Positions 1 to 52,816 of a stretch of 64,000 bases of DNA are shown here, one piece after another. A program made the translations under genes and the position numbers. The stretch's first letter is position 1, and every line of letters begins with the position of its first letter. Origin of the DNA: Gelidibacter mesophilus DSM 14095 (GTDB lineage Bacteria > Bacteroidota > Bacteroidia > Flavobacteriales > Flavobacteriaceae); the NCBI RefSeq assembly GCF_000423005.1, contig NZ_AUHD01000007.1, positions 124,001 through 188,000 of the forward strand, in the 5' to 3' direction. The notes beneath the pieces were generated by a model, which saw nothing but the letters and a program-made list of their open reading frames with translations, did no database searches and had not been told where the DNA came from.

Positions 1-1421
1 AGGATAACGTGAGTGATTCCGAAGGGGCATTCGCAACTCAAGGGTATTTTGGAAGATTGAACTATAATTATAAAGAAAAGTACCTTTTTGAAGTGAATGG
101 TCGTTACGATGCTTCTTCAAGATTTTCTGCAGATAGTCGTTGGAATTTTTTCCCATCAATTTCTGCTGGGTATAATATTGCCAAAGAAGACTTTTGGCCT
201 CTTGACAAAGTAAATATGTTCAAGATTCGTTATTCAACTGGATCCATTGGAAACCAAAATGTGAAGGATCAAGGAGGTAATATCGTTAATTATCCATACA
301 TACAAAAAATGCCTATTAGGACCAATCTTTGGTGGATCGGGAATAACGGAAGACCTAATTACACTTTAACCCCGGGTCTAATTACTCCAGATTTAACTTG
401 GGAAACTGTAAAAACGGACAACTTCGGTCTTGATATTGCAGCCTTTAATAACCGTTTGCAAACAACTTTTGAATATTTCATACGAACCACTGACGATATG
501 TTTGGACCGGCAGAGCGTTTACCTGCAATATTAGGTACCACATCACCACAATCTAACAACGCCTCTTTGGAAACCAAAGGGTTTGATTTTAGTATCCAAT
601 GGAAAGACAATTTGGGAGAAGTGAATTATAATGTTAGCCTCATTCTATCTGATGCCGTAACGAAAGTCACTAAATACCGTAATCCAAACAATTTGCTGAA
701 CACTTATCGTGAAGGACAGACACTTGGTGAAATATGGGGTTTTGAAACTATAGGTTTGTATCAAAACCAAACCGAAATAGATAATGGTCCAGACCTATCC
801 AAGTTTTATGGTGGTCAATGGTTTCCTGGTGATGTACATTACAATGACCTCAACGGCGATGGCTTTGTTGATTGGGGTAAATCTACTTCAGACGATCCGG
901 GAGATTTAAAGGTAATAGGCAACTCAACGCCTAGATATCTCTATTCTTTTACTGCAGGTATCGACTACAAAGGAATTGACTTTTCAATGTTTTGGCAAGG
1001 CATTGGAAAAAGAGAAGTATGGACTGGAGACGCCTATACTTTTGGAGCCGTTGGCAACCAATGGCAATCTGCCGGATTTGAGGAGCATAAAGATTATTGG
1101 TCTGTCGATAACCCTGGCGCATTCTTACCTAGACCAACCTTCAGAAGTGCATGGCGAAATCAAGAAGTCCAAACCAGATATTTACAAAATGGCGCTTATT
1201 TGAGATTGAAAAATATAACCCTTGGGTATAGTTTTTCTCCAGATATCTTAGATAAACTGCATCTTAAAAAACTTAGAATTTTTATGGCTGGAGAAAACTT
1301 ATTTACTTTCACTAAAATGTCAACAATTTTTGATCCAGAAGCTACTGGAGGAAGTTGGGGGAATGGAAAAATTTATCCACTCCAAAAGTCATATTCTCTT
1401 GGTCTACATATTCAATTTTAA
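1..1421 (+). CDS. SusC/RagA-family TonB-dependent receptor, C-terminal part (5' end outside window)
   Basis: This is the C-terminal part of an outer-membrane TonB-dependent transporter that imports glycan fragments together with its SusD lid. The frame is open back to the first base of the window, so the GTG at 9 is not the true start and the plug and N-terminal domains lie upstream. What is visible is SusC barrel sequence: the GYFGRLNYNY and RYDASSRF strand motifs near the left edge, the LNGDG...D acidic loop, and a C-terminus ending GLHIQF with a terminal aromatic residue as expected for BAM-assembled barrels. The SusD partner starts 12 bp after the stop, so the two are co-transcribed. The substrate cannot be read from the sequence; downstream GH2, GH27, GH16 and sulfatase genes suggest sulfated galactose- or hexosamine-containing oligosaccharides. 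Confidence 0.95.
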   Translation, partial: DNVSDSEGAFATQGYFGRLNYNYKEKYLFEVNGRYDASSRFSADSRWNFFPSISAGYNIAKEDFWPLDKVNMFKIRYSTGSIGNQNVKDQGGNIVNYPYIQKMPIRTNLWWIGNNGRPNYTLTPGLITPDLTWETVKTDNFGLDIAAFNNRLQTTFEYFIRTTDDMFGPAERLPAILGTTSPQSNNASLETKGFDFSIQWKDNLGEVNYNVSLILSDAVTKVTKYRNPNNLLNTYREGQTLGEIWGFETIGLYQNQTEIDNGPDLSKFYGGQWFPGDVHYNDLNGDGFVDWGKSTSDDPGDLKVIGNSTPRYLYSFTAGIDYKGIDFSMFWQGIGKREVWTGDAYTFGAVGNQWQSAGFEEHKDYWSVDNPGAFLPRPTFRSAWRNQEVQTRYLQNGAYLRLKNITLGYSFSPDILDKLHLKKLRIFMAGENLFTFTKMSTIFDPEATGGSWGNGKIYPLQKSYSLGLHIQF

Positions 1422-1433
1422 TAACATCATATT

Positions 1434-3176
1434 ATGAAACATACAAAATTCATTGCATTAATATTTATTCTGACCTTCAGTATTGGTTGTTCAGATGACC
1501 TGTTGGATAAACTGCCCGAAGACGAAATTTCTCCTGAGGCGTATTGGAAAACTCCTAATGACTTGGCACTTTTCCTCAACCAATTCTACACCTCGTTTCC
1601 TGTACACAATGGATACAACGGTGGTATCTTTGAGTTTGATAACAATAGTGACAACCTTGCAGATATTTTTATAAACAATCGGTTTGTTGGAACATCTTCT
1701 AATGCACCAACATCAGATGGTTCTTGGAATAACGGATACGGATTGATTAGAAGTGTGAATTTCTACCTTGAAAATAGTGGAACGGCACAAGGTGATGCTG
1801 CATTAATAGACCATTATGATGGAGAAGCGTATTTCTTTAGAGCCATGTTTTATTATAATCTACTTAAACGATATGGAGGCGTGCCGTATATAGACAAGAC
1901 TCTGAATACGGATTCCCCTGAACTCTATACAGCAAGAATGCCAAGAAATGAATTGGCAACAAAAATTGTTGAAGATTTGGATAAGGCGATAGCCAAATTA
2001 AAACCAAGAAGTACTGCAGAGAAATTTAGGGTACACCAAGGTATTGCCCTGTCTTTAAAATCGTCGGTTTGTCTTTATGAAGGAACTTGGGAAAAGTATC
2101 ACACCGGTGATGATTTTGCAGCACCAGAAAATGAAAGCACGAAATTTTTACAATGGGCGGCTGATGCAGCTGAAATGCTAATCAATCAAGGAGAATACTC
2201 TATTTATAATAATGGAACGGCTAAAACCTATTGGGATTTGTTTAACCAGGTTGATTATTCTGGAATTTCTGAAGTCATGTTCTGGAAAAAATATAATGTA
2301 TCAGATGGCGTAAGTCATTATGTAGGACATTATCTTCCTCATACGGGTTCAGGTACAGGTGTGACCAAATCTTTGGTAGACTCATACTTAGCTATTGATG
2401 GACAGCCTATTTCAGTAAGTCCTTTGTATAGTGCCAGTCAGGAAAGCAGTTTGACTACTATTATAAAAGATAGAGACCCTAGACTGAGGCAAACAATTGC
2501 TACTCCTGGCGATTTGCTAACCGTAAATTCTGGTGTTCCAGATGAACTATTTGAATTTCCAACCTTCAGAGGAAATAATGAAATTACAAATACCACCGGG
2601 TATCAAATTTACAAGGGAGGAACTACAGATAATGACCAAAGAACGAATAGTTATACAGGTGCCATCATTTTTAGATACGCTGAGGTGCTCCTTAATTATG
2701 CAGAAGCAAAGGCTGAACTTGGAAGTTTGACTCAAGGCGATCTTGATATCTCCATTAACTTACTAAGAGCGCGTGTTGGGATGCCGTCATTAAGTATAAC
2801 TCCTGTTTCAGATCCAAACAAAGCTTTTCCTGGGTTAAGTGATCTTATCAATGAGGTGAGAAGGGAACGCCGCGTAGAAACAGCTTTGGAAGGAAAGCGT
2901 TTTGATGATTTAATGCGTTGGGCAGCAGCAGATGAACTCATCGTTGGAAAGCGATTAATGGGCTTCAAGATTATCGGTAGTGATATGGAAGCTGAATTTT
3001 CTGAGGAAATTAATGCCTCAATATTGGTGAATTCATCAGGCTACATTGATCCATATATAAATACAATTCCAGAGGGTTATGGATTTAAACTTGGAAGAGA
3101 TTATCTCTCTCCAATACCTACAGAACAAATAGTTTTGAGCCAAGGGAGTCTAGTACAGAATCCAGGATGGGAATAA
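1434..3176 (+). CDS. SusD/RagB-family glycan-binding outer-membrane lipoprotein
   Basis: This is a surface lipoprotein that closes over the SusC barrel and binds the incoming glycan. The N-terminus is a lipoprotein signal with lipobox S-I-G-C (Cys at about residue 19), followed by the SDDLLDKLPEDEISPEAYW region typical of SusD N-termini. TPR-type helices follow (AYFFRAMFYYNLLKRYGGVPY), then the C-terminal hallmark of the family: IFRYAEVLLNYAEAKAEL, RRERRVETALEGKRFDDLMRW, and a PIPTEQI...NPGWE end. At 580 residues it is normal for the family. It sits 12 bp behind the SusC gene and is followed by a strong hairpin terminator, so SusC-SusD may form one unit separable from the enzyme genes downstream. 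Confidence 0.96.
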   Translation: MKHTKFIALIFILTFSIGCSDDLLDKLPEDEISPEAYWKTPNDLALFLNQFYTSFPVHNGYNGGIFEFDNNSDNLADIFINNRFVGTSSNAPTSDGSWNNGYGLIRSVNFYLENSGTAQGDAALIDHYDGEAYFFRAMFYYNLLKRYGGVPYIDKTLNTDSPELYTARMPRNELATKIVEDLDKAIAKLKPRSTAEKFRVHQGIALSLKSSVCLYEGTWEKYHTGDDFAAPENESTKFLQWAADAAEMLINQGEYSIYNNGTAKTYWDLFNQVDYSGISEVMFWKKYNVSDGVSHYVGHYLPHTGSGTGVTKSLVDSYLAIDGQPISVSPLYSASQESSLTTIIKDRDPRLRQTIATPGDLLTVNSGVPDELFEFPTFRGNNEITNTTGYQIYKGGTTDNDQRTNSYTGAIIFRYAEVLLNYAEAKAELGSLTQGDLDISINLLRARVGMPSLSITPVSDPNKAFPGLSDLINEVRRERRVETALEGKRFDDLMRWAAADELIVGKRLMGFKIIGSDMEAEFSEEINASILVNSSGYIDPYINTIPEGYGFKLGRDYLSPIPTEQIVLSQGSLVQNPGWE

Positions 3177-3766: not shown

Positions 3767-3830
3767 ACTTGTAAGATTTCACGAAAGAATGAGTTTTCAA
3801 TTTATAGTATTCACACTTTATATTTTACAA

Positions 3831-6800
3831 ATGATCACATTTTCAAGAAAAAAAGTTTTAGGTGTATTGCAAATCGTATTTATCTGCTTTGCCGTTTTAA
3901 ACGTTAATGGTCAAGCTAAAGATCCTATTAAAGATTACGTGGATTATATTATGAACGAGGCCGTGATCAGCGAACACAAAATGGACGCACACGCCTCTTT
4001 CACCTCGTTTACTTCAGAAAAGGATGCGTTGGACAATACCCCAAAATACTACCAATTACTGGATGGGATCTGGAAATTCAATTGGGTACGAAATCCCAAA
4101 GACAGACCAACTACATTCATGAATCCCAATGAGGATGTCTCTTCGTGGGATGACATCAAAGTGCCGTCCAACTGGGAAGTGGAAGGTTACGGGATTCCTA
4201 TTTACGTGAACCATCAGTACGAATTTTCCGATTATAAAGCCATGGTGGCCGATGATATGGAACTTGTGGACCGTATCTATCCTGCCAATCCTGGGAAAGT
4301 TCCCAGCGAATATAATCCTGTTGGAACTTATGTGCGCGAATTTACGATAGCAAACGATTGGGAAGGCAAGGAAATCTCCTTGCAGATTGGTGCCATGAAA
4401 TCCGGTGGTTTTGTTTGGCTCAATGGCAAATACATTGGCTATTCGCAAGGAAGTAAATTACCTGCGGAATTCAATATTACAGCCGCGGCACATACGGGAA
4501 AGAACAAAATTGCCATTCAGATTTTTAGATGGACGGACGGTTCTTATTTGGAAGCCCAGGATTTTTGGAGGATTAGCGGTATTGAGCGCAGCGTATATGT
4601 GTATGCCCAACCCAAATTGCGCATTGAGGATTATGAAGTGGTGTCCATCTTGGATGGGGCTTATAAAGATGGGGTATTTGAATTGGATGTCACTCTTGAA
4701 AATGCCAATTCAAAATCGGATAAAGGCAGTGTGTCTTATAAAATTTTGGACGCCGACTCAAAAACTGTGGCGTCAGATTCCAAATCTTTTACTATTAACG
4801 GTTCAAAACAACATGAATTCAATTTTTCTGCCACCCTTCCCCAGGTGAAGCAATGGAGTGCAGAACATCCTAATCTGTACACCCTTCTTATTGAAACCAA
4901 GGACAGTAAGGGAAAGACCCGAGAGGTGACGACCTCTAAAATAGGGTTTCGATCGGTTGAAATCAAACAAGGGTTGTTATTGGTCAACGGGCAGCGCATC
5001 ACCTTAAAAGGAGTGAATACCCAAGAAACCAATCCGGAAACCGGGCATGTGGTACCTGAAGCCTTGATCATGAAAGATATCAAGCTTTGGAAAGAAAACA
5101 ACATCAACGCCGTACGGTTGAGCCATTACCCACAACAACGCCGGTTTTATGAACTTTGTGACGAGTATGGTTTATATGTCGTGGATGAAGCGAATATTGA
5201 ATCGCACGGCATGTATTACGGCGAACATTCCTTGGCAAAAAAACCAAGTTGGGAAAACGCACATGTGGATAGAATGGTCCGTTTGGTAAAACGCGACAAA
5301 AACCATCCGTCGGTGATTATTTGGTCCATGGGGAATGAAGCCGGAAATGGGGTGAATTTCTTCAAAGGTTATGATGCCATGAAAGCAAATGATAAGACCA
5401 AACGTCCTGTACAGTACGAGCGCCCTTATAAAGATTACGATGGCAGCATTTGGGACATGGATACCAATACGGATATACTCGTGCCGCAATATCCAACGCC
5501 AGCAACGTTTGAAGCGGTAGGAAGGACCAAAACGGACCGGCCTTATATTCCGAGTGAGTATGCCCACGCGATGGGAAACAGTACGGGAAATTTTCAGGAT
5601 TATTGGGATATTATTGAACGATATGACAACCTCCAAGGTGGTTTTATTTGGGACTGGGTAGATCAATCGATCTGGAAAACCAATGAAAAAGGCGAACGCT
5701 TTTATGCCTATGGCGGCGATTATGGTGAGAATATGCCCACCGATAATACCTTTTTAAATAACGGTATTGTCTTCCCGGACCGTACGCCACAGCCTGGGTT
5801 GTTTGAAGTTAAAAAAGCACACGAATTTATCAATTTCAGGGATCATGGTGTAAACCGTCATGACGAACTCCGAATTTTGGTGGAGAATTTATATGATTTT
5901 ACGGATCTCAATCAATTCAATTTTACTGCAGAAATAAAAGCAGATGGTAAGGTTCTAAAAACCATTCCCATTGAAGATATATCGGTGGAAACACATACCG
6001 GCAAATTAATTAGAGTGTCCCTAAAGGATGTGGATTATAAAGAAAACACCCAATACTTTTTAGAGATTTCAGCAACTACGAAAGCGCCTTGGGGCATACT
6101 TCCAAAAGGCTATGAAGTGGCCCATGAGCAATTTTCATTGAGAGGCAAGTATAAAAAAGAAAGCACGAAGCTGGATGCGAAAGGCACTTTAAAAATTAAG
6201 GACTCCAAAGAAACTTTAGAGGTTACCAATGCGGACGTGAAAGTTGTTTTTGATAAAACAAAAGGACAAATAACCTCTTACGTTTATGAAGGGACTGAGC
6301 TATTGAAAGACGGAAATGGCCCTAAACCAAACTTTTGGCGCGCCCCAACGGATAATGATTTTGGTAGCCAAATGCAAGCCAAAAATATCGAATGGAAAAA
6401 AGCCTCGCTATTTATGAAAGTGGCAAAGTTAACTTCGAAAACCAATAATGATGGCAGTGTTACCATTAATGTGAATTATAACTTGCCAGGTGTCAATACC
6501 ACTTTTGATTCGGAATATCACATTCTGGGGAATGGTGCCATTAAAATCGACAATACCCTTCACGAAACCGAGTATAAAGCCGATCTGCCACGGGTAGGCA
6601 TGCGCATGCAGTTGCCGAAGGCTTACGAAAACATGACCTATTTTGGTCGTGGCCCTTGGGAAAACTATCAGGATAGAAAAGCTTCTGCGTTTCTTGACGT
6701 TTATGAGTCAAAAGTTAAAGATCAGTACGTGCCTTACGTAAGACCACAAGAAAATGGTTATAAAACAGACGTGCGCTGGTCAGCGTTTACAGATGCTAAC

Positions 6801-7190
6801 AACAATGGTTTGCTAGTGGTGGCACAAAACCAATTTCAAGGTTTAGGTATGAGTGCCTTGCACATGCCAAACGAAGATTTTGATACCACTTCTGGGATCG
6901 CTTATAGTGGGAATGAAAATTTGGAGGAAGAATTTAGAACGGATGGGATTCCGCAAATAAATGCGTCCAAACATATCAATGATATAAAAGAACAAGATTT
7001 AGTGCAACTCAATATTGATTTGGGACAACGTGGGGTGGCAGGAGATAATAGCTGGGGAGGTAGACCACAAGAGGAATACCTGATCCGAGGACAGGAAAAA
7101 CATGCCTACAGTTTTTATTTGGTTCCTTTTAAAAACGGAACTGTAAAGGATTTTGTAGAATGGAGCAAGTTATACAGCAATCAAAACTAA
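3831..7190 (+). CDS. GH2 beta-galactosidase-like enzyme, LacZ architecture, divergent His motif
   Basis: This is a secreted retaining glycosidase of family GH2, probably releasing terminal beta-galactose. An in-frame ATG at 3789 exists, but the ATG at 3831 gives a clean signal peptide (ITFSRKKVLGVLQIVFICF...NGQA), so I use it; length is 1119 aa. The order is sugar-binding jelly-roll, Ig-like domain, TIM barrel, second Ig-like domain and Bgal small-chain domain starting around [11 protein letters not shown]. The acid/base is E503 in WSMGNEAGNG and the nucleophile is E576 in [11 protein letters not shown]. The LacZ signature GVNRHEHxP reads GVNTQETNP here, so both signature histidines are missing; this fits a divergent subfamily with altered substrate preference. 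The GH2 gene 870 bp downstream has the same architecture but the standard motif. Confidence 0.93.
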   Translation: MITFSRKKVLGVLQIVFICFAVLNVNGQAKDPIKDYVDYIMNEAVISEHKMDAHASFTSFTSEKDALDNTPKYYQLLDGIWKFNWVRNPKDRPTTFMNPNEDVSSWDDIKVPSNWEVEGYGIPIYVNHQYEFSDYKAMVADDMELVDRIYPANPGKVPSEYNPVGTYVREFTIANDWEGKEISLQIGAMKSGGFVWLNGKYIGYSQGSKLPAEFNITAAAHTGKNKIAIQIFRWTDGSYLEAQDFWRISGIERSVYVYAQPKLRIEDYEVVSILDGAYKDGVFELDVTLENANSKSDKGSVSYKILDADSKTVASDSKSFTINGSKQHEFNFSATLPQVKQWSAEHPNLYTLLIETKDSKGKTREVTTSKIGFRSVEIKQGLLLVNGQRITLKGVNTQETNPETGHVVPEALIMKDIKLWKENNINAVRLSHYPQQRRFYELCDEYGLYVVDEANIESHGMYYGEHSLAKKPSWENAHVDRMVRLVKRDKNHPSVIIWSMGNEAGNGVNFFKGYDAMKANDKTKRPVQYERPYKDYDGSIWDMDTNTDILVPQYPTPATFEAVGRTKTDRPYIPSEYAHAMGNSTGNFQDYWDIIERYDNLQGGFIWDWVDQSIWKTNEKGERFYAYGGDYGENMPTDNTFLNNGIVFPDRTPQPGLFEVKKAHEFINFRDHGVNRHDELRILVENLYDFTDLNQFNFTAEIKADGKVLKTIPIEDISVETHTGKLIRVSLKDVDYKENTQYFLEISATTKAPWGILPKGYEVAHEQFSLRGKYKKESTKLDAKGTLKIKDSKETLEVTNADVKVVFDKTKGQITSYVYEGTELLKDGNGPKPNFWRAPTDNDFGSQMQAKNIEWKKASLFMKVAKLTSKTNNDGSVTINVNYNLPGVNTTFDSEYHILGNGAIKIDNTLHETEYKADLPRVGMRMQLPKAYENMTYFGRGPWENYQDRKASAFLDVYESKVKDQYVPYVRPQENGYKTDVRWSAFTDANNNGLLVVAQNQFQGLGMSALHMPNEDFDTTSGIAYSGNENLEEEFRTDGIPQINASKHINDIKEQDLVQLNIDLGQRGVAGDNSWGGRPQEEYLIRGQEKHAYSFYLVPFKNGTVKDFVEWSKLYSNQN

Positions 7191-7294: not shown

Positions 7295-7945
7295 ATGAAA
7301 AAACTTCTGATTCTCGTTGTGCTGTTAGTGGTGAATTTTGGATTTGCCCAAACCTACTCGAAGCACTATTACGAAAGAAAGGAATTATTTGAGAAAAGTG
7401 TGGACACACCGGACGAAATTATATTCTTAGGCAACAGTATCACCGAAGGTGGCAATTGGAAAGCCTTGTTTCCCGATAGAAACGTAGTGAACAGAGGGAT
7501 TAGTGGGGATGTGACTGACGGCATTTTATTCCGATTGGAAGAAGTGACGGCGTCACAACCGTCCAAAGTGTTCTTGTTGGTGGGAACAAATGACATGGCC
7601 AAAGGAAAAAGCATCGATTATGTTTTGGAAAACACCGAAAAAATAATTGCCCAAATAAAAGAGCAATCCAAAGACACCAAAATATACCTGCAAAGCATTT
7701 TACCGATAAATCCTAATGTTGGAAAAAAATTCCCCGGACATAAAAACAACCATGAAAAAATTATGGCCGCCAATAAACGATTAAAAGCGCTTGCAAAAGA
7801 CTATGATATAAATTATATTAATCTGCATACCCCGATGAGCGATGGAAAAAAGCACCTGAAACCAAAATACACGCACGACGGGTTGCATCTCACGGAAGAG
7901 GGGTATCAAAAATGGAAGAAGATCATATATAAATATGTCAATTAA
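7295..7945 (+). CDS. Secreted SGNH/GDSL-family esterase
   Basis: This is a 216-residue secreted hydrolase of the SGNH superfamily, close in form to the PAF-acetylhydrolase/GDSL lipases found in glycan loci, where they commonly remove O-acetyl groups. A signal peptide (KKLLILVVLLVVNFGFAQ) precedes the four family blocks in order: block I IFLGNSITEGG (nucleophile Ser), block II NRGISGD (Gly), block III VGTNDM (Asn), and block V DGLHLTEEGY (Asp-x-x-His). It lies 104 bp after the first GH2 and 115 bp before the second, so it probably belongs to one operon with them. An O-acetyl sugar, including O-acetyl sialate, is a reasonable substrate, but the sequence alone does not decide it. Confidence 0.88.
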   Translation: MKKLLILVVLLVVNFGFAQTYSKHYYERKELFEKSVDTPDEIIFLGNSITEGGNWKALFPDRNVVNRGISGDVTDGILFRLEEVTASQPSKVFLLVGTNDMAKGKSIDYVLENTEKIIAQIKEQSKDTKIYLQSILPINPNVGKKFPGHKNNHEKIMAANKRLKALAKDYDINYINLHTPMSDGKKHLKPKYTHDGLHLTEEGYQKWKKIIYKYVN

Positions 7946-7976: not shown

Positions 7977-11174
<3,198 letters not shown>

Positions 11175-11246: not shown

Positions 11247-11256
11247 TGGACATAAA

Positions 11257-12510
11257 ATGATGAGATACGGTCTGTTGGTAGTGCTTTTGGTTTTGACCTC
11301 GTGTTGGGAGAAAGAACGGGATATAAATCCTTTTGCCGCAAGCAAGCTTAACACACAGGAAATCCATAAACCCCAAACCCCAATCATGGGATGGTCCAGC
11401 TGGAACAACTTCCATGTGGACATCAACGAAGAGGTGATCAAGGCCCAAGCCGATTTTATGGTCTCTTCCGGGATGGCCGATGTGGGCTATTCGTACATCA
11501 ATATCGATGACGGATTTTTTGGAGGTCGCGACGCCCAGGGCGATTTGCTGGTGCATCCCGAACGGTTCCCCAACGGCATGAAAGTGGTTGCGGATTATAT
11601 CCATTCCAAAGGGCTGAAAGCGGGAATTTATTCCGATGCCGGGATCAACACCTGTGCCTCACATTGGGACAAGGATACCATTGGCGTGGGTTCAGGACTT
11701 ATGGGCCACGATCGGAAGGATTTAAAATTGATGCTCAACGAGTGGAATTATGATTTTATCAAAGTCGATTGGTGCGGTGGTGATTGGTTGGGCCTGGATG
11801 AAGAAACCCGTTACACCCAAATTGCCAATATCATTAAGGAAATCAAGCCCAACACCGTTGTTAATATCTGTAGATGGGAATTCCCGGGCACTTGGGCGCT
11901 TCAAATTGCCGATTCCTGGCGGATCTCGGGGGATATTAGCAATGATTTTAATTCCATTCTGCACATTATCGATTTGAACGCTGACCTTTGGAAATATGCC
12001 TCGCCGGGCCATGTCAATGATATGGACATGTTGCAAGTGGGACGTGGGATGACGTATGAGGAAGATAAAACGCATTTTAGCATGTGGTGTATGATGAGCT
12101 CGCCACTTTTGGCAGGGAATGACTTGCGATATATGACCGACGAAACCATCGCCATTTTAACCAATAAAGAGATTATCGCTTTAAACCAAGATCCGTTAGT
12201 ATATCAAGCCCGTAGGTTGGTGGACAACGGCGATTTGGAGGTTTGGGCAAAACCATTGGTTTCTACCATGAGCGGCAAAGTGGCAGTGGCCTTGTTGAAC
12301 CGGTCGGATAAACCAGCAACCATCTCTTTTGATCTGGACCTTGTTGGCCTGATCGCTTCAGAAGGGTATAGTTACCGCGATGTATGGGCAAAGAAGGATT
12401 TTGATAAATCGACCAAGGAAAACTTGGGTTTTGAAGTGGCGCCATATGGGGTGGTGGTGTTGACATTGGACGGTACTTCAAAGCCTTTTAATAGTTTTCA
12501 GGATAAGTAG
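11257..12510 (+). CDS. GH27 alpha-galactosidase / alpha-N-acetylgalactosaminidase family lipoprotein
   Basis: This is a retaining alpha-glycosidase of family GH27. The frame is open far upstream into the preceding gene, but the ATG pair at 11257/11260 gives a lipoprotein signal with lipobox L-T-S-C, and everything before it is shadow sequence. Length is 417 aa, normal for the family. The barrel starts with TPIMGWSSWNNF and carries NIDDGFF, the nucleophile D171 in FIKVDWCGG and the acid/base D226 in SWRISGDI, then the C-terminal antiparallel beta domain. In the C2-recognition loop the sequence is C-R-W-E rather than the C-E-W of alpha-galactosidases or C-S-W of human alpha-NAGAL, so whether it prefers alpha-Gal, alpha-GalNAc or another sugar is open. 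Confidence 0.9.
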   Translation: MMRYGLLVVLLVLTSCWEKERDINPFAASKLNTQEIHKPQTPIMGWSSWNNFHVDINEEVIKAQADFMVSSGMADVGYSYINIDDGFFGGRDAQGDLLVHPERFPNGMKVVADYIHSKGLKAGIYSDAGINTCASHWDKDTIGVGSGLMGHDRKDLKLMLNEWNYDFIKVDWCGGDWLGLDEETRYTQIANIIKEIKPNTVVNICRWEFPGTWALQIADSWRISGDISNDFNSILHIIDLNADLWKYASPGHVNDMDMLQVGRGMTYEEDKTHFSMWCMMSSPLLAGNDLRYMTDETIAILTNKEIIALNQDPLVYQARRLVDNGDLEVWAKPLVSTMSGKVAVALLNRSDKPATISFDLDLVGLIASEGYSYRDVWAKKDFDKSTKENLGFEVAPYGVVVLTLDGTSKPFNSFQDK

Positions 12511-20819: not shown

Positions 20820-20832
20820 CTTGTACTATATA

Positions 20833-24177: not shown

Positions 24178-24276
24178 AGATTTGCATGTTAGTTAATTAT
24201 ACATTTTTATTAATTAATAATATTAAGGGGGGAGATTCACACATTACTTCTCAAGGTTAGGCTTTCTTCCCTTCTT

Positions 24277-40118: not shown

Positions 40119-40264
40119 AGGTATTCGTTTCTGTCTAAATTAACTAAAATCTGTCCAAAAATAAGTAAAAGATGCGAAATACGACTTTAGTTTTATGTAA
40201 CTCATTGATGTATAATAAAGTACGAATTCAATTATGATCACGGAATTGGTGTCAAATAAATTCT

Positions 40265-40277
40265 TAAATTTGGTACT
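40265..40277 (+). promoter_or_regulatory. Possible TAnnTTTG -7 box directly before the GNAT start
   Basis: TAAATTTG (40265-40272) matches the Bacteroidota -7 consensus TAnnTTTG, with ATTG 16 bp upstream (40245-40248) as a weak -33 element. Transcription would start at about 40277, almost on the ATG at 40278, which implies a leaderless or near-leaderless mRNA. Confidence 0.3.
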
Positions 40278-45123: not shown

Positions 45124-46482
45124 ATGAGTTCAAGAAGAGACTTTGTAAAAAAAACAGCGTTGGCTGGTGCGGGCATTATGATGCTCCCTAATTTGTCCTT
45201 TGGTGCTATGTTAGGCTCCGCTGATCAAAAATTAAAAATGGCTTTTATTGGCGTGGGCCTTAGAGGGTGTAACCATTTAAATAATGCATTGTTAAGAAAG
45301 GATACGGAAATCACTGCAATTTGTGATGTCGATCCTGCTAGAATTGAAATTGCATTGAAAATGATCAAGGATGCAGGTTTTGCCAAACCACAGGTTTTTA
45401 GCAAAGATGACCAAGATTATTTGAATCTATTGAATTTGAAAGAGGTTGATGCGGTTGTTATTTCTACGCCTTGGTTATGGCACACCAGAATGGCGGTAGA
45501 TAGTATGAAGGCTGGAAAATATACCGGCTTAGAAGTTTCAGCGGCCAACACTTTGGAAGAATGTTGGGATTTGGTTAATACACACGAATCAACAGGATCA
45601 CACCTTATGATTCTTGAAAATGTGAATTACCGTCGCGATGTTATGGCGGTATTAAATATGGTCAAACAAAATGTATTTGGTGAATTGGTGCACTTTAGAT
45701 GTGGCTATCAACATGATTTGCGAGGCGTAAAATTTAATGACGGTAAATCGGCTTATGGTAAAGGCGTTGAATTTGGTGATAAAGGTATTTCTGAATCTGC
45801 ATGGCGAACTCAACATTCACTTTTAAGAAATGCAGATGTCTATCCGACCCATGGATTGGGGCCTATGGCTGTAATGTGTGATATTAATAGAGGAAATAGA
45901 TTGAGCTCATTGACGTCCCATGCTTCAAAAGGTGTCGGATTACATAATTATATAGTTGATAATGGAGGGAAAGATCATCCAAACGCCAAGTTGAAATTTA
46001 AACAGGGTGATGTTATCACGACAACCGTTGAAACTACGAATGGCGAAACCATCATCATTACCCACGACGTTAATCTACCAAGACCGTATTCTTTAGGATT
46101 CAGGGTGCAAGGCGCCAATGGTTTATGGGAAGCTGATGGTAGTAGAATTTATGTAGAGGGCAAATCAAAGCCACACCGTTGGGATGAGGCTGACGAATGG
46201 TTGAAAAAATATGATCATCCTTTATGGAAAAAGTATGGAGAAATGGCTATGGACGCTGGCCATGGGGGAATGGACTTTTTTGTCATGAATTCATTTGTTG
46301 AGTCGGCTAAAGAAAAGATAGCGCCACCAATGGATGCTTATGATGCTGCGGCATGGAGTTCAATTACCCCGCTTTCAGAAGTTTCTATAGAGAACAATGG
46401 TGAACCTCAAGATATCCCTGACTTTACAAGAGGCATGTGGGTAAAACGTAAACCATACAATTGGATTAAGGATACTTATTAA
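45124..46482 (+). CDS. GH109 alpha-N-acetylgalactosaminidase (Gfo/Idh/MocA fold, Tat-exported)
   Basis: This is an NAD-dependent glycosidase of family GH109, which removes alpha-GalNAc (A antigen, mucin core Tn) by a redox mechanism with tightly bound NAD; 452 aa. The N-terminus SSRRDFVKKTALAGAGIMML is a twin-arginine signal, fitting export of a folded cofactor protein. The Rossmann motif is FIGVGLRGCNH with CDVDPARIE after it. The family-specific block is ENVNYRRDVMAVLNMVKQNV, then CGYQHDLRGVKFNDG, YPTHGLGPMA, RPYSLGFRVQG and AGHGGMDFFV, which agrees closely with my memory of the Elizabethkingia enzyme. It is first in the operon with SusC and SusD (54 bp to SusC), divergent from the HTCS. 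Confidence 0.92.
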   Translation: MSSRRDFVKKTALAGAGIMMLPNLSFGAMLGSADQKLKMAFIGVGLRGCNHLNNALLRKDTEITAICDVDPARIEIALKMIKDAGFAKPQVFSKDDQDYLNLLNLKEVDAVVISTPWLWHTRMAVDSMKAGKYTGLEVSAANTLEECWDLVNTHESTGSHLMILENVNYRRDVMAVLNMVKQNVFGELVHFRCGYQHDLRGVKFNDGKSAYGKGVEFGDKGISESAWRTQHSLLRNADVYPTHGLGPMAVMCDINRGNRLSSLTSHASKGVGLHNYIVDNGGKDHPNAKLKFKQGDVITTTVETTNGETIIITHDVNLPRPYSLGFRVQGANGLWEADGSRIYVEGKSKPHRWDEADEWLKKYDHPLWKKYGEMAMDAGHGGMDFFVMNSFVESAKEKIAPPMDAYDAAAWSSITPLSEVSIENNGEPQDIPDFTRGMWVKRKPYNWIKDTY

Positions 46483-46535: not shown

Positions 46536-49500
46536 ATGAAGAAACTATTATTTGTTTTATTCTCAACCTTACTTTTCGGTTCTGCATATGCACAGCAATC
46601 TAAAATTGAGGTTAAAGGAACAATAACAGAAGCTAGCACCGGAATGTTTGTTCCGGGAGCAACTATTATTGAAAAAGGCACCTCTAATGGTGCTGCATCT
46701 GATTTTGATGGTAATTTTACTATAAACGTTAATAGTGACGCCACACTAGTTGTGTCCTTTATGGGATTCGTTACACAAGAGGTTCCAGTTAGCGGTCGCT
46801 CTGAAATAAAAATTATTCTGCAAGATGATGTTGCTAGTTTGGACGAAGTTATTGTTGTAGGATACAGTACTCAAAAAAGAGAGAGTGTAACAGGCGCATT
46901 GAACACTGTTAAAGGAGATGATCTTAGGAACGTTACCACGCCTTCCGTAGAAAATATGCTTAACGGAAAAGCACCTGGGGTATATGTAGCATCAGGATCA
47001 GGGCAACCTGGTTCAAGAGGTGCTGTAGTCATCCGTGGTCAAGCTACTTTAAGTGGGACAACATCTCCACTTTGGGTTATTGACGGGGTTATAGTTGGAT
47101 CAAGTTCAGGAGAATTAAATCCTGATGACATAGATTCCATGACCGTTTTAAAAGATGCTGCTTCAACTGCTATTTATGGCTCACAAGGTGCCAATGGCGT
47201 TATTGTAGTAACAACAAAGCGAGCTAAAATAGGGAAAACAAGTGTTAGCTTTTCTACCAAGGTTGGTATCAATCTGCTCAATAACGGAAACACAGAAATG
47301 ATGAACGGTGCTGAATTGTACGATTATTATGCGTCGTTTGCGAATGCTGATCAAATTTCCTTTCCACGCTGGAATTCAGATTTGCGCAATAGCAATTTCG
47401 ATTGGTGGGATGTGGCAACGAAGACAGGTTTGACCCGTACTTACAATGTTTCTATCCAAGGAGGTACTGAAACCCTTCGTTCATTTATGTCGCTTGGGAT
47501 GTATGATGAAGAAGGTGCTGTAAAAGGCTATGACTATAAGCGTTACAATCTCCGTTTCAAAACGGAATATAAGCCCGTGGATTGGTTGACTATAAAACCT
47601 GCGATAACAGGTTCATTACGTGATGTGGATGATCGTCAGTATTCAACAACAGCCATGTATTCTAATCTACCATGGGACAGTCCTTACAATGAAGATGGAA
47701 GTTTGGTTGGACACCGTTCTAGCAGTTGGGTAAATAGTGCCAGTACCAACTACCTGTACGATCTTCAGTGGAATCATGGGGGTAGCAAGAACTATGAATT
47801 TATGGGAAATATGGACTTTGATGTCAGACTGACCGATTGGTTGACATTCTCGTCTGTTAACAACATCCGTTATAACAATTACAAATCAAGTGGTTACACA
47901 GACCCACGATCCAGTGGAGGTGAAAGTGTAGGCGGACGTATTGAAGAGTACAGATCAGATTACACCCGTTTATACACCAATCAAATTTTAAGATTTGACA
48001 AAAGTTGGGGCAATCACGACGTAAATGGTTTGTTAGCTTATGAATTTAATGATTACACAAGCCAGACTTTGGATGCGGCTGGTACTGGATTTATTCCAGG
48101 TTTTGAAATTTTAGATGTAGTTGCAGTACCAGAGCGTACTAAAGGCGGTATCAGTGAATGGGCAGTACAATCCGTTCTTTTTAATGCTAATTATGCGTAT
48201 GATAATAGGTACTTGGGGCAGGTTTCTTTTCGTAGAGATGGTGCTTCCAACTTTGGTGATAATGCAAAGTATGGTAATTTCTATTCTATTAGTGGGGGTT
48301 GGAATATCCACAACGAGGAATGGTTTGATGCTGATTGGATAAATTCTCTGAAAATCCGTGCTTCTTACGGCTCTGTTGGAAATCGTCCAAGTGCATTATA
48401 TCCTCAGTATGACTTATATGCCGTATCTGGTGGTGCCAGCTATAATCAGAATCCAGGCGCATTGATAAGCCAAATTGGAAATAAAAACTTAACTTGGGAA
48501 AAGACCTATACCGGTGGTGCAGGTTTAGATGCTGCATTTTTTGATAATCGCTTGAGACTATCTTTTGATTATTACGAAAAGAATACAGAAAATATTCTTT
48601 ATAGAGTTCCTATTACAGGATTAACAGGTGTGACAAGTATATGGCAAAATATAGGTGAAATGGAGAACAAGGGGATTGAGCTTTCCATTGGAGGAGATAT
48701 CATTCGCAATCAAGATTTGACTTGGAGTGTTGATTTGAATTTAGGTCATAACAATAATAAGCTAACCAAGTTGTACAAAACAAAAAATTCTAATGGCGAT
48801 TATGTGGTCAGACCAATCATAGTTGGTGACGGATTAGGCATTGCCGGATCTGCGCAACGTATGTTAGAGCCAGGTCGTCCGGTGGATACGTATTATTTGA
48901 AAGAATGGGCTGGTGTTAATCCTGAAAACGGACTGCCATTATGGTATATTGTAGATAGAGATGCCGACGGAAATGAATTGTCTCGTGAAACCACATCTAA
49001 TTACTCACAAGCGACTTTTGAAAAAACAGGAAAAGTATCTCCAGATCTTTTTGGAGGGTTTTCTACTGCTTTGATTTATAAGAAGTTTGATTTTAATGCA
49101 GTATTTGGTTATGCCTTAGGTGGTAAAATTTATAATTATTCAAGACAAGAATATGATTCTGATGGAACTTATACTGATCGTAACCAAATGCGTCTGAGAC
49201 CAGAATGGAACCGTTGGGAAAAACCAGGTGATATTGCCACGCACCCAATTGCAAGATATAATAACCAAGATAAAGGTAATGCCACATCTACGCGTTATTT
49301 GGAAAACAACGATTTCTTAAAGTTGCGTTCATTGTCCTTGGGTTATAATATTGACTTGAGTCAATATAAGATTGACAACTTACGTGTCTCCTTATCAGGA
49401 GAGAATCTGTTCACTATTACTAAATACTCAGGAGTAGATCCAGAAATCCCGGCAATTGATGGATCCGTTATGGGCTCAACAGGACCTGCGGTATATCCGG

Positions 49501-49541
49501 CAACAACTAAGTTTATGTTCGGACTTAACTTACAATTTTAA
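46536..49541 (+). CDS. SusC/RagA-family TonB-dependent glycan transporter
   Basis: This is an outer-membrane glycan importer of 1001 aa. The signal peptide (KKLLFVLFSTLLFGSAYAQ) is followed directly by a CarboxypepD_reg-like domain (VKGTITEASTGMFVPGATI); unlike the SusC at 20.8 kb it has no STN domain, so it should not signal through a FecR protein. The TonB box/plug region has LDEVIVVGYSTQKRESVTGA, VVIRGQATL and ASTAIYGSQGANGVIVVTTK. The barrel ends TKFMFGLNLQF. It is flanked by GH109 and its SusD (11 bp apart). Control through the divergent HTCS is consistent with the lack of STN. Confidence 0.97.
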   Translation: MKKLLFVLFSTLLFGSAYAQQSKIEVKGTITEASTGMFVPGATIIEKGTSNGAASDFDGNFTINVNSDATLVVSFMGFVTQEVPVSGRSEIKIILQDDVASLDEVIVVGYSTQKRESVTGALNTVKGDDLRNVTTPSVENMLNGKAPGVYVASGSGQPGSRGAVVIRGQATLSGTTSPLWVIDGVIVGSSSGELNPDDIDSMTVLKDAASTAIYGSQGANGVIVVTTKRAKIGKTSVSFSTKVGINLLNNGNTEMMNGAELYDYYASFANADQISFPRWNSDLRNSNFDWWDVATKTGLTRTYNVSIQGGTETLRSFMSLGMYDEEGAVKGYDYKRYNLRFKTEYKPVDWLTIKPAITGSLRDVDDRQYSTTAMYSNLPWDSPYNEDGSLVGHRSSSWVNSASTNYLYDLQWNHGGSKNYEFMGNMDFDVRLTDWLTFSSVNNIRYNNYKSSGYTDPRSSGGESVGGRIEEYRSDYTRLYTNQILRFDKSWGNHDVNGLLAYEFNDYTSQTLDAAGTGFIPGFEILDVVAVPERTKGGISEWAVQSVLFNANYAYDNRYLGQVSFRRDGASNFGDNAKYGNFYSISGGWNIHNEEWFDADWINSLKIRASYGSVGNRPSALYPQYDLYAVSGGASYNQNPGALISQIGNKNLTWEKTYTGGAGLDAAFFDNRLRLSFDYYEKNTENILYRVPITGLTGVTSIWQNIGEMENKGIELSIGGDIIRNQDLTWSVDLNLGHNNNKLTKLYKTKNSNGDYVVRPIIVGDGLGIAGSAQRMLEPGRPVDTYYLKEWAGVNPENGLPLWYIVDRDADGNELSRETTSNYSQATFEKTGKVSPDLFGGFSTALIYKKFDFNAVFGYALGGKIYNYSRQEYDSDGTYTDRNQMRLRPEWNRWEKPGDIATHPIARYNNQDKGNATSTRYLENNDFLKLRSLSLGYNIDLSQYKIDNLRVSLSGENLFTITKYSGVDPEIPAIDGSVMGSTGPAVYPATTKFMFGLNLQF

Positions 49542-49552
49542 AAGGAAACACC

Positions 49553-51262
49553 ATGAAAAAAATATTTATAGCCATATTGGTCGCGGCAACATTCACAGCG
49601 TGTGATATAGACCGTTTGCCTAAAGGAAGCATGGACTCAGAGACTATTGTCGGTAATCCAGATGCTTCTCTAGATGCATTGCTTAATGGAATGTACGCTC
49701 AGTTAAAATCTTGGTCAGACCCTATGCATCGAATGGGGGAGTACGCAGGAGACAATATGATGATTCGCGGATCATCTACAGATGCTTTTTACGAATTCAT
49801 CTCATATGCGCGTACACCAAATAACTATCGTTTAACCCAAATGTGGGATTCCGGATATAAGGCAATTGCACAAGCCTCAAATATCATTGATATGATTGAT
49901 GAAGGCCAAAGTGCTGAAATAGACAATAAGATTGGAGAGACTTACTACGTACGTGGGATGATGTATTTCTACTTGACGCGTGCATTCGGTCGTCCCTATT
50001 ATCAAAGTCCAGAAACAAATTTGGGCGTGCCTATCGTAAATGGCACTCCAGATGATGTGCTTAATATGAATCTTGATGATCGTGCAACGGTTAAAGATAG
50101 TTATGAGCAAGCAATCAGTGATTTGAAGAAAGCCGAAGAATTGTTGACTCTGGATAAAACTTCAATTTTTGCTTCTAAAGAAGCTGCTCAGGCCATGTTG
50201 TCTCGTGTTTATCTTTATATGAGTGGCACTTATACTGCGCCTAATGCTGAGTATGCACAGCTTTCTGTAGAGTACTCTGACAAAGTAATTAACTCCGGAA
50301 AATATGCCTTATTGCCAAGAGCGCAATTTATGAAGTACAATACTTTTATTCCTGAAAACAATGTGGAGACCATCTTTGCCATCAAACGTGTGGCATCAGA
50401 GTATTCAGGTTTTGACCACTATTATGGTGTTGGTGGAATGTATGCCAATTTAGGTGGCATGGGCTGGGGTGAAATGTATGCCAGTGCCAAGTACATCGAT
50501 TTGCTTAACGAAACAGGCCGTAATGACTGGCGTGAAGATAGCTATAATCTGGTAGATGCGCGTGCAGCTTTTATAGAACCTACCTACTCACAGGATGCTG
50601 ATGGTGCATATTCTGAAGTATTTCGTTTTGTGAAAGAAGATGGTCCTGATAATTTAAACTATGTGCAGGCTACAATCACCCGAAGCGGTAGTACTATCAC
50701 AGCTAAAGAAGGAGATATTACTTATACGCTCACTGCTATTGATGCTGCTCAGGAAACTTATTCCATATTGTATAAGGACGGCAAAACATATTCTGGAGTA
50801 ATTGATGACTATATTACGCTCAATCGAGTTTACCCACAGTTCTACATTACAAAATCCTCATTGGAAGGTGAGGAATCTCATTTGCATTCTCCAGTCATCA
50901 GCCGTTTGGGTGAGGTCTATCTCAACCGTGCAGAAGCTTATGCTAAATTAGGAAACTATAGCGCGGCACTTATTGATCTCAATACCATTAGAGAGCGCTC
51001 TATTGTAGACGCAGGGTACTCGACTCTGGACGCTTCCAATGCGAGTGAAAGAATAGACAAAGAGCGTCAGTTGGAGCTGGCCTATCAAGCTGAACGAAGC
51101 TATGATGTGTTTCGTAATGGGAAAGAGTTGGAGCGCCACTACCCAGGACCTCATAAACAGTTTGATGATATCTCAGCAACTGATTTCCGAGTGGTGTATT
51201 ATATTCCGCAAGATGCGATTAACTCCTACCCAGGCACATTGACTCAAAATCCAACGCAATAA
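49553..51262 (+). CDS. SusD/RagB-family glycan-binding lipoprotein
   Basis: This is the surface lipoprotein partner of the preceding SusC; 569 aa. The lipobox is F-T-A-C (Cys at about residue 17). MYFYLTRAFGRPYYQSPETN is the TPR segment that holds the SusD fold. The C-terminal signature is VISRLGEVYLNRAEAYAKLG, DKERQLELAYQAERSYDVFR and YYIPQDAINSYPGTLTQNPTQ. The insert around residues 355-425 (SGSTITAKEGDITYTLTAID) is longer than in the other two SusDs here and may shape the glycan site. A hairpin terminator follows after about 100 bp. Confidence 0.96.
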   Translation: MKKIFIAILVAATFTACDIDRLPKGSMDSETIVGNPDASLDALLNGMYAQLKSWSDPMHRMGEYAGDNMMIRGSSTDAFYEFISYARTPNNYRLTQMWDSGYKAIAQASNIIDMIDEGQSAEIDNKIGETYYVRGMMYFYLTRAFGRPYYQSPETNLGVPIVNGTPDDVLNMNLDDRATVKDSYEQAISDLKKAEELLTLDKTSIFASKEAAQAMLSRVYLYMSGTYTAPNAEYAQLSVEYSDKVINSGKYALLPRAQFMKYNTFIPENNVETIFAIKRVASEYSGFDHYYGVGGMYANLGGMGWGEMYASAKYIDLLNETGRNDWREDSYNLVDARAAFIEPTYSQDADGAYSEVFRFVKEDGPDNLNYVQATITRSGSTITAKEGDITYTLTAIDAAQETYSILYKDGKTYSGVIDDYITLNRVYPQFYITKSSLEGEESHLHSPVISRLGEVYLNRAEAYAKLGNYSAALIDLNTIRERSIVDAGYSTLDASNASERIDKERQLELAYQAERSYDVFRNGKELERHYPGPHKQFDDISATDFRVVYYIPQDAINSYPGTLTQNPTQ

Positions 51263-51357: not shown

Positions 51358-51400
51358 GGGAGAACCTTGACTTAAACATTAAGCTTCTCCCTTCTTATTT
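51358..51400 (+). terminator. Hairpin terminator after the third SusC/SusD pair
   Basis: GGGAGAACCTT (51358-51368) pairs with AAGCTTCTCCC (51381-51391) with one mismatch and a 12-nt loop, followed by a T-rich tail TTCTTATTTG. Confidence 0.6.
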
Positions 51401-51496
51401 GTCATTGTTTTAAGTAGACCTAACTGATTAATCTAAATTTTTCAAAAACTATGATATATCGCATCTAAATAAATATCGGAAATCAAGACTAAAAAT

Positions 51497-52816
51497 ATGC
51501 TAAAAATGAGATTCCTTAATCTTTTCGTGTTGCTGCTGTCCGTTTTTTTGACAAATTGTAACACTACTAAATCGACTGAAAAACAAGAAGAACTAGATTT
51601 ATCCATCCAAATTCCCGTCGGACCAAACAGCTGGGTGGTGAACAGTGCTACCGCTAATACCGATATGATCAGTGATTCTGGAATTAAAAATTGGTCGGAT
51701 TTAAAAACTGTAGTTCGTACCTATTTCAAAACAGACACTGCAGGAAAACTACACCTAGGGTTGAATTTGAATGTACCAGAAGGTACATCACGAATTAAAG
51801 TGTCCCTAGAAAATCAAACCAAAAATGTAAAGGTAAATTCTTCGCAAAACCAACCTGTTAATCTTGGTGTTTTTGATGTTCAAGCGGGGTATCATGTTAT
51901 TGAGATAGTTGGCGAAGCAAAATCCGGTCCTGTTGTTGCGGATATTAATGAAGTTTTAATTGGCGGACCAGCCACCGAAGGCAACGTTTATTTTATTAAA
52001 GACGATTTCTATTTTGGGCGTCGCGGACCATCGGTCCATTTGTCTTATGAATTACCAGAGGACAAGGATGTGGTTTGGTTTTACAATGAAATTAATGTTC
52101 CTGAAGGCGAAGATGTCATTGGATCCTATTATATGGCCAACGGTTTCATGGATGGGTATTTTGGAATTCAGGTCAATTCAGAAACTGAACGACGCATTTT
52201 GTTCTCCGTTTGGAGTCCTTTTGACACCCAAGATCCTAAAGAGATTCCCGACGATCATAAAATACTTTTACTGGGCAAAGGGGATAATGTAACCACAGGA
52301 GAGTTTGGCAACGAGGGTTCTGGAGGCCAAAGCTATAAAGTGTACAATTGGAAGGCGGGCACATCCTATCGGTTTTTATTGAAAGGAGTGCCAGCAGAAA
52401 ATAATTCAACAGATTATACCGCATATTTCTTCACGCCAGAAACTAATACTTGGAATTTGATTGCGAGTTTTAGAAGACCGCAGGGCAGTCGACACTTAAA
52501 AAGATTATATTCTTTTTTAGAAAATTTTGTGCCTTCAACCGGCAATATATCTCGAAAAGCTAACTACAACAATCAATGGATATATACGGCGGATAAAGAA
52601 TGGATAGAGTTGACCAAAGCAAAATTTACGGCCGATGCCACAGCAAGAAAGAAATCGAGAATGGATTATGCTGGTGGGGTTGAAGGGAACCAGTTTTTTA
52701 TGGAAAATGGTGGCTTTTTTAGTGAGACCACCCCAATTGATTCTGAATTTTCAAGAACGGCAAACGGCGTAGCTCCAAATATTGATTTCTCTAAATTAGA
52801 AAAGCCAAAAAAATAG
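51497..52816 (+). CDS. DUF3472 lipoprotein with DUF5077-like N-terminal domain
   Basis: This is an exported lipoprotein of 439 aa (lipobox L-T-N-C) of unknown biochemical role. The N-terminal half (about 35-160: LSIQIPVGPNSWVVNSATAN, AGYHVIEIVGEAKSGPV) resembles the DUF5077 beta-sandwich. The central part (about 170-360) is DUF3472: HLSYELPEDKDVVWFYNEIN, IGSYYMANGFMDGYFGIQVN, GKGDNVTTGEFGNEGSGGQS and WNLIASFRRPQG. DUF3472 proteins recur in Bacteroidota glycan loci and may bind sugar. An alternative start is ATG 51506. It is set apart from SusD by a terminator and followed by its own, so it can be transcribed alone. Confidence 0.85.
   Translation: MLKMRFLNLFVLLLSVFLTNCNTTKSTEKQEELDLSIQIPVGPNSWVVNSATANTDMISDSGIKNWSDLKTVVRTYFKTDTAGKLHLGLNLNVPEGTSRIKVSLENQTKNVKVNSSQNQPVNLGVFDVQAGYHVIEIVGEAKSGPVVADINEVLIGGPATEGNVYFIKDDFYFGRRGPSVHLSYELPEDKDVVWFYNEINVPEGEDVIGSYYMANGFMDGYFGIQVNSETERRILFSVWSPFDTQDPKEIPDDHKILLLGKGDNVTTGEFGNEGSGGQSYKVYNWKAGTSYRFLLKGVPAENNSTDYTAYFFTPETNTWNLIASFRRPQGSRHLKRLYSFLENFVPSTGNISRKANYNNQWIYTADKEWIELTKAKFTADATARKKSRMDYAGGVEGNQFFMENGGFFSETTPIDSEFSRTANGVAPNIDFSKLEKPKK

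Follow-up and report, generated by a model that had tools for sequence, protein, structure and literature searches.

Which glycan would Gelidibacter mesophilus DSM 14095 attack with a densely packed set of glycosidase, sulfatase and SusC/SusD genes, and do these genes serve one class of substrate? The question was raised by a stretch of 64,000 nucleotides (C6:124001-188000 on contig C6, NZ_AUHD01000007.1, of a 4.43 Mb genome in 55 contigs), which is called the window here; positions without contig prefix refer to it. The original prediction had read it as clustered loci for animal-type glycoprotein glycans in an environmental flavobacterium, a description that fits the genus Gelidibacter. Using Pfam and NCBIfam scans for family assignment and searches against PDB sequences for the nearest solved relatives, we found that the window edge cuts through an island of approximately 104 kb (C6:73205-176816), measuring 103,612 bases from the first SusC gene to the DUF3472 gene. 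Distributed across it were five pairs of SusC and SusD genes and regulators of three types, namely LytTR/histidine kinase, extracytoplasmic function (ECF) sigma factor/FecR and hybrid two-component system (HTCS). Domain scans and gene order revealed adjacent SusC/SusD pairs with carbohydrate-active enzymes and regulators, the arrangement of polysaccharide utilization loci (PULs). Judged from these genes, the island is quite likely a modular multi-PUL locus dismantling animal-type sialylated, sulfated glycoproteins with poly-N-acetyllactosamine (poly-LacNAc) chains to single sugars. An animal substrate would fit the gene combination better than a microalgal one, with fish mucus as an unproven candidate.

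The part of the island left of the window (C6:73205-124000) was analysed by a Pfam scan of C6:64001-126000. It started with genes for SusC, SusD, a DHDPS/sialate-lyase-like protein, YhcH, an AGE epimerase, a creatininase, a BNR sialidase, LrgA and LrgB, followed by a GDSL plus sialate-esterase protein, GH27, GH20, SusC and a SusD-like protein. Next came, on the other strand, a LytTR regulator and a histidine kinase, and after them GH92, an SSF symporter and GH130, then a CBM9 protein (from a scan of part of its gene), GH18, a GHL10 protein, GH92 and a glycosylasparaginase-type protein, and finally GH20, two GH29, two GH92 and PNGase F. The resulting list of 55 island genes excludes the LrgA/LrgB pair and an unscanned open reading frame (ORF) of 239 residues. 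The sialidase, assigned to GH33, was the sole PF13088 match of the genome; it carried five Asp-boxes, and its nearest solved relatives were the exo-sialidases 7lbu (158 bits) and 1eur (148 bits). Sialidase, transporter, lyase and AGE epimerase (NCBIfam 651 bits, cut-off 600) made up the set of a nan operon, alongside a NanU-like SusD, with the lyase recognized by a score below its cut-off and the transporter located 77 kb from the operon. This transporter is a fusion of a NanM-like sialate mutarotase and a sodium symporter (36505..39126, + strand; PF24996 and PF00474), a predicted sialic acid importer, whose mutarotase domain reached 181 bits (NCBIfam cut-off 243). Its sialate role is supported by a mutarotase/symporter fusion in the sialate PUL of Tenacibaculum maritimum, as described in excerpts of PMC5561996.

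The second upstream operon combined genes for PNGase F, glycosylasparaginase, four GH92, two GH29, GH20, GH18 and GH130 enzymes and ran into the window, as SusC1 begins on the same strand 225 bases past the PNGase gene. The closest solved PNGases were 4qhb (402 bits) and 3ks7 (394 bits), versus 221 bits for 7zgn, 216 for 4r4z and 23 for 1pnf. In the available text of PMC9522356, group 1 of these enzymes is defined by Glu or Asp at the E118 position and group 2 by Gly (G380). Asp191 of the island enzyme aligned with Gly351 of chain 4r4z, which becomes the published G380 when 29 is added; the same offset places Glu390 at E419 of the figure legend, given as Glu418 in the text available from that source. 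The island enzyme is therefore predicted to be a group-1 PNGase, which would not accept core alpha-1,3-fucose. The glycosylasparaginase matched 1p4k with 410 bits and the GH130 protein UhgbMP with 503 bits. An assignment of the GH18 protein as an Endo F/H-type enzyme was considered and found unsupported.

Within the window, the S1 sulfatase (15672..17279, + strand) is S1_11-like and a predicted exo-acting N-acetylglucosamine (GlcNAc)-6-O-sulfatase. Its top matches were 7p24 (mucin-desulfating sulfatase, 551 bits), 5g2v (N-acetylglucosamine-6-sulfatase, 530 bits) and 9s03 (putative sulfatase, 523 bits), followed by two unnamed sulfatases (436 and 435 bits) and the exo-L-galactose-6-sulfatase 7lha (343 bits). 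The subfamily labels of these PDB entries are our assumption. The maturation motif C/S-x-P/A-S/X-R was present as CAPSR, and the genome contained six sulfatase-domain matches and eight matches to the formylglycine-generating enzyme (FGE) family, one of them below cut-off. Excerpts of PMC10154612 report that the region of S1_11 enzymes contacting the N-acetyl group is missing in about half of the subfamily, especially in aquatic members acting on L-galactose. The window protein aligned unbroken over its whole length with 7p24 and 5g2v, which favours 6-sulfated GlcNAc as the predicted substrate; the alignment with 7lha fell into three stretches. In four Gelidibacter, an extra S1 sulfatase with 27-34% identity to the window enzyme was located directly before the S1_11 gene; it was not seen in the window.

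The GH16 protein (17383..18213, + strand), a predicted endo-beta-galactosidase on poly-LacNAc or keratan-sulfate-like chains, showed the weakest enzyme-domain match of the window (Pfam, 7.6e-15). By sequence its top match was 6t2r (122 bits), followed by a glucanase (100 bits), with kappa-carrageenases at 1.3e-6 or weaker. A fold search with its AlphaFold2 model (mean predicted local distance difference test score 86.6) again placed 6t2r first (E 1.7e-22, 33% identity). The catalytic motif E-x-D-x-x-E was present as GGEIDIME, and the finger-3 tryptophans, defined in excerpts of PMC7419316 and located in alignment columns assigned by us, were found as W131, W135 and W146, in agreement with the motif of the GH16 subfamily 3 O-glycanases. 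A quick tree built from 94 rows contained a 16-row clade, in which the window protein takes two rows, with a Shimodaira-Hasegawa-like approximate likelihood ratio (SH-aLRT) support of 100. A second clade of 6 rows (SH-aLRT 82) held 6t2r and a second GH16 protein of the genome, and both clades joined in a 22-row group (SH-aLRT 99) apart from the two included glucanases, 7wwc and 4dfs. Because of long branches and a single O-glycanase in the tree, the clade is described cautiously as a sister to the O-glycanases. This second GH16 gene of the genome belongs to another possible mucin locus (C4:303362-320719) with GH29, the 6t2r-grouping GH16, HTCS, SusC, SusD, GH2 and GH89 genes; its GH89 ORF ends early in the C-terminal domain and may be broken.

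A contig scan for relatives of the window GH16 yielded 62 loci, 14 of them with at least 54% identity, spanning Gelidibacter, Flavobacterium, Polaribacter, Aestuariibaculum, Sunxiuqinia, Mangrovibacterium and Algoriphagus. Within the examined stretches, some of which stop at a contig edge, a GH20 relative was found near 12 of the 14 loci, a GH2 relative (some distant) likewise near 12, and an S1_11 relative of at least 52% identity near 10. Poly-LacNAc or keratan-sulfate chains would call for just such a set of GH16, GH20, GH2 and a 6-sulfated-GlcNAc-type sulfatase. The window GH16 shares with the gut GH16 O-glycanases (6t2r and others; PMC7419316, in excerpts) the GH16 fold, GGEIDIME and the three finger-3 tryptophans, and 6t2r is its nearest relative by sequence and fold. 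Its clade differs from 6t2r by its separate sister branch, 33% identity in the fold alignment and a stretch, ADKGKSG, not present in 6t2r. Tentatively, and with slightly more doubt than confidence, we propose that the clade represents a new lineage of poly-LacNAc/keratan-sulfate endo-beta-galactosidases in non-gut Bacteroidota, parallel to the gut mucin O-glycanases, and that the Gelidibacter island forms a self-contained pathway from sialylated, sulfated animal glycoprotein to monosaccharides.

The sulfatase and GH16 genes belong to PUL1, which together with its transporter genes runs on the + strand from the window edge. The edge-cut SusC1 gene (3' part 3..1421; TIGR04056, 413 bits) begins 1.7 kb before the window, at C6:122287, and precedes SusD1, a glycan-binding lipoprotein (1434..3176; PF07980, 156 bits), a LacZ-type GH2 beta-galactosidase (3789..7190; Pfam, NF052611 with 983 bits, slightly below the cut-off of 999), an SGNH/GDSL esterase and possible O-deacetylase (7295..7945; PF13472), a second GH2 beta-galactosidase (7977..11174; Pfam), a member of the GH27 alpha-galactosidase/alpha-N-acetylgalactosaminidase family (11257..12510; PF16499) and a GalB-like GH2 beta-galactosidase (12940..15420; NF041463 with 890 bits, slightly below the cut-off of 900). 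The top solved relative of the GH27 protein was the alpha-galactosidase 1uas (275 bits); its true start is probably the ATG at about 11257 and not the GTG at 10933, which overlaps the GH2 gene. Beside GH16, on the - strand, lies a conserved gene for a 206-residue protein (18278..18898) without Pfam match, found with 63-65% identity in three Gelidibacter stretches; its structure prediction had low confidence (mean predicted local distance difference test score 45.6) and was discarded.

A - strand block follows with SusD2 (19224..20819; PF07980), SusC2 (20833..24177; Plug domain and CarbopepD_reg_2), the anti-sigma factor FecR (24277..25446; PF04773 and PF16344), an ECF sigma factor (25744..26340; Sigma70_r2 and r4_2), a GH84 beta-N-acetylglucosaminidase (26928..29159; NF041654 with 1135 bits, above the cut-off of 1000), a GH123 beta-N-acetylgalactosaminidase (29199..30974; 5l7r, 525 bits), a GH20 beta-hexosaminidase with PA14 domain (31163..33472; PF00728 and PF07691), a second GH20 beta-hexosaminidase (33549..35195; PF00728) and an M28 peptidase (35326..36282; PF04389), after which the mutarotase/symporter fusion follows. 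The third block, PUL3, comprises the HTCS regulator (40752..44840, - strand; Reg_prop, Y_Y_Y, HATPase_c, Response_reg and HTH_18) and, on the + strand, a GH109 NAD-dependent alpha-N-acetylgalactosaminidase-like enzyme (45124..46482), SusC3 (46536..49541; Pfam), SusD3 (49553..51262; Pfam) and a putative DUF5077/DUF3472 lipoprotein (51497..52816; Pfam), which marks the right end of the island and was found with 67-69% identity in two Gelidibacter. The GH109 protein matched the solved GH109 enzyme 2ixa over nearly its full length (residues 31-451, 510 bits). The DUF5077/DUF3472 gene ends PUL3 in the window genome and in two related genomes. Genes for an Fpg-type DNA glycosylase and a GNAT acetyltransferase lie inside the island at 39330-40706, an arrangement shared by G. 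sediminis and G. salicanalis IC162. Right of the island, at 60492-63350 and beyond, a separate alpha-glucan locus encodes an alpha-amylase with a type IX secretion system (T9SS) tail, SusD, an MFS transporter, GH65 and a SusC-like ORF.

Thus, all families named by the original prediction, including the fusion, GH109, the three SusC/SusD pairs and both kinds of regulators, were recovered by Pfam and NCBIfam at their predicted places, and, as it had held, no alginate lyase was found within the window. Its picture of the loci was to be amended in that SusC1 is cut by the edge and the loci make up the right-hand portion of a larger whole. The animal-type substrate gained support from the nearest relatives and from the sialate and N-glycan genes directly upstream, as far as activities can be predicted from sequence; by nearest solved relative, neither GH16 nor S1 was of the algal type that would have spoken against it.

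In order to follow the island in related bacteria, its 55 proteins were compared by tblastn, using at least 55% identity over at least half of the length as criterion for presence. G. sediminis kept 50 and G. salicanalis IC162 47 of the 55 genes, followed by G. maritimus with 40 and an uncultured Gelidibacter with 35 (both limited by contig ends), a contig of Flavobacterium sp. TAB 87 with 27 and one of Polaribacter sp. IC073 with 24. Gene order was preserved in the Gelidibacter; in TAB 87 one GH2 gene was displaced, and in Polaribacter the PUL1 genes were inverted and adjoined the N-glycan block. G. sediminis and G. salicanalis IC162 also shared the right flank of the window genome, with genes for NhaA and aconitase (79% and 90% identity). 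The recurrence of the island genes in order in these two genomes argues against clustering by chance. Two further PNGase neighbourhoods without the island were excluded from the six-genome count, as was Mangrovibacterium, in which GH16, S1, GH20, PNGase and nan-like SusC/SusD genes were found rearranged at 31-68% identity. Among the relatives the enzymes were mostly retained and the transporters varied. G. maritimus, the uncultured Gelidibacter and TAB 87 lacked SusC1/SusD1; no SusC3/SusD3 were found for G. salicanalis IC162, whose GH109 gene is followed by other SusC/SusD genes. The block of SusD2, SusC2, FecR and ECF sigma factor genes (19224-26340) was present in none of the six genomes; G. 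sediminis and G. salicanalis have its flanking genes side by side, and its G+C content of 0.372 compares with 0.414 and 0.419 on its two sides, which suggests a later insertion into the conserved enzyme block of the window genome.

PNGase F matches, two of them weak, were obtained in 12 of the 14 genomes searched, which comprised the window genome and 13 others carrying a GH16 relative. Among 249 sampled genomes of the family, a full PNGase (E <= 1e-48) was found in 24 (38 at E <= 0.001), an orthologue of the GH33 sialidase (1e-80) in 23 and an orthologue of the GH16 protein (1e-60) in 5. All five GH16-bearing genomes contained GH33 (Fisher 4e-6; three of three, 5e-4, without two congeners), as did 9 of the 24 PNGase-bearing genomes (Fisher 5e-5; 9e-4 without two congeners). 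PNGase occurred in three of the five GH16-bearing genomes, all three Gelidibacter (Fisher 0.007). These co-occurrence tests ignore the kinship of the genomes.

Several observations weigh against the proposed animal-glycoprotein pathway. Sialidase orthologues in 23 of 249 genomes are not special to the island. Some sialate assignments scored low in NCBIfam: the SusD of the first pair reached 358 bits with the NanU model (cut-off 425) and the NanA-like lyase 157 bits (cut-off 281), and the sialate-esterase-type protein weakly matched an acetylxylan esterase (157 versus a cut-off of 700). The nearest solved relatives of the GH18 protein were chitinases (best 427 bits). Below rank one, the fold matches of the GH16 protein were laminarinases mixed with other O-glycanases, followed by carrageenases, and its clade stands on a long stem beside, not among, the single characterized O-glycanase of the tree. 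A stretch of 20.8 kb in G. salicanalis PAMC21136 contained only the GH16 and S1_11 genes of the 55. A profile search with a positive control found no M60 mucinase in the genome. Finally, 21 SusD-like_3 matches were obtained genome-wide, four of them in the island; the 20 above cut-off indicate a generalist and not an animal-glycan specialist.

Among other explanations, the one surviving best, which we nonetheless regard as unlikely, is that during blooms the island serves to degrade glycoproteins from microalgae or from eukaryotes other than animals. In excerpts of PMC10877868, "host glycan" genes of GH92, GH20 and GH109 were reported for 33 of 71 abundant metagenome-assembled genomes of the North Sea, from particle-attached bacteria, with microalgal N-glycans proposed as substrate; sialic acid degradation genes were likewise tracked there. 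One Polaribacter genome, of a genus named in the same excerpts, carries the PUL1 and N-glycan blocks, yet the sialate module was not found on its contig. Against a microalgal target, the group-1 PNGase, the 6-sulfated-GlcNAc-type sulfatase, the O-glycanase-like GH16, the alpha-N-acetylgalactosaminidase-type GH109 and the sialate module jointly indicate animal-type chains. Sulfated poly-LacNAc is not known as an algal glycan.

We consider it very improbable that the loci are independent, with unrelated substrates and adjacent by chance, PUL3 for example serving another glycan. The five SusC/SusD pairs with three regulator types could be read in this way, and so could the SusC/SusD pairs missing or replaced in relatives while the enzymes persist, the closing of PUL3 with a DUF3472 protein and the rearranged PUL1 and N-glycan blocks of Polaribacter, on whose contig no nan, GH84 or PUL3 block was found; order and right flank are, however, the same in two Gelidibacter, and the predicted activities are complementary. 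It is hardly credible that PUL1 (three GH2, GH16, S1, GH27 and SGNH) serves red-algal galactan, with glycoprotein being the target of its neighbours only: GH2, GH16, S1 and GH27 also occur together in agar, porphyran and carrageenan loci, but GH16 and sulfatase are nearest to non-algal types (6t2r well ahead of the kappa-carrageenases, the L-galactose-6-sulfatase match 200 bits below the mucin one), PUL1 continues the PNGase operon on one strand here and in relatives, and the GH16 orthologues mostly lie near GH20, S1_11 and GH2 relatives.

For degradation of animal glycoproteins we propose the following route, inferring every activity, localisation, regulatory feature and substrate from families, gene order, conservation and nearest relatives as directly observed. 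Glycopeptides would be made outside and imported via the five SusC/SusD pairs. PNGase and several glycosidases start with plain signal-peptide-like stretches, the GH16 start is of lipoprotein type without acidic residues right after the cysteine, and the Pfam matches of the island proteins included no T9SS tail; together these features point to mostly periplasmic dismantling. The GH33 sialidase and the sialate-esterase-type protein would uncap the chains, and freed sialic acid would be imported by the NanM/symporter fusion and converted to GlcNAc via lyase and 2-epimerase. PNGase F and glycosylasparaginase would release N-glycans from asparagine, with GH29, GH92, GH130, GH20 and GH18 dismantling core and mannose arms. 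GH16 would cleave inside the poly-LacNAc chains, S1_11 would take the 6-sulfate off GlcNAc, and GH2, GH20 and GH84 would trim beta-linked galactose (Gal) and beta-GlcNAc. GH123, GH109 and GH27 may remove beta-linked N-acetylgalactosamine (GalNAc), alpha-GalNAc and alpha-Gal, respectively.

How does the island compare with known systems? Elizabethkingia meningoseptica, which we take to be the source of the compared glycosylasparaginase, GH109 and PNGase structures, possesses similar kinds of enzymes, as seen from the scores of 1p4k (410 bits) and 2ixa (510 bits). The island PNGase differs and is of the Bacteroides group-1 type, its alignment with PNGase F (1pnf) scoring 23 bits and that with PNGF-II (4r4z) 216 bits. 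The Bacteroides N-glycan loci, as described in excerpts of PMC9522356 and PMC10154615, share Asp at the E118 position of PNGase, GH92, GH29, GH20, GH2, GH130 and SusC/SusD; in contrast, the Gelidibacter island unites these in one block with glycosylasparaginase, a sialic acid operon and a poly-LacNAc/sulfatase module. By description in the available text of PMC5561996, the T. maritimum sialic acid PUL contains SusC/SusD, N-acetylneuraminate lyase, 2-epimerase and the mutarotase/symporter fusion. It comprises nine genes, with a multidomain sialidase of T9SS type, in a genome for which that text gives no gpd operon or sulfatase, whereas the Gelidibacter genes form a large island with a short GH33. 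PUL5 (Gpd) of Capnocytophaga canimorsus resembles the island by flavobacterial N-glycan harvesting with a periplasmic sialidase, as described in the same excerpts. For the fish-gut flavobacterium Flaviramulus ichthyoenteri, sialidases, NanA, sulfatases and fucosidases were read as mucus use in the available text of PMC4324048; this gene-by-gene account differs by a TRAP sialic acid transporter and, within that text, describes no such island. Among the papers listed in searches of the open-access literature, as judged by titles and abstract openings, none described a comparable island from this genus. All parts are of known kinds; new are their combination in one island in Gelidibacter and the uncharacterized GH16 clade.

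Carbohydrate work on marine flavobacteria centres on algal polysaccharides, and feeding on glycoprotein glycans is studied mostly in gut microbes. Excerpts of PMC10811738 argue that animal mucin is a steady benthic substrate. The GH16 clade, the group-1 PNGase and the GH109 enzyme are candidate tool enzymes. If the proposed pathway is true, the island would offer a counterpart, open to experimental test, to the foraging of mucin and N-glycans in the gut, and mucus, eggs, carcasses or gut surfaces would be a carbon source worth retaining in several Gelidibacter species.

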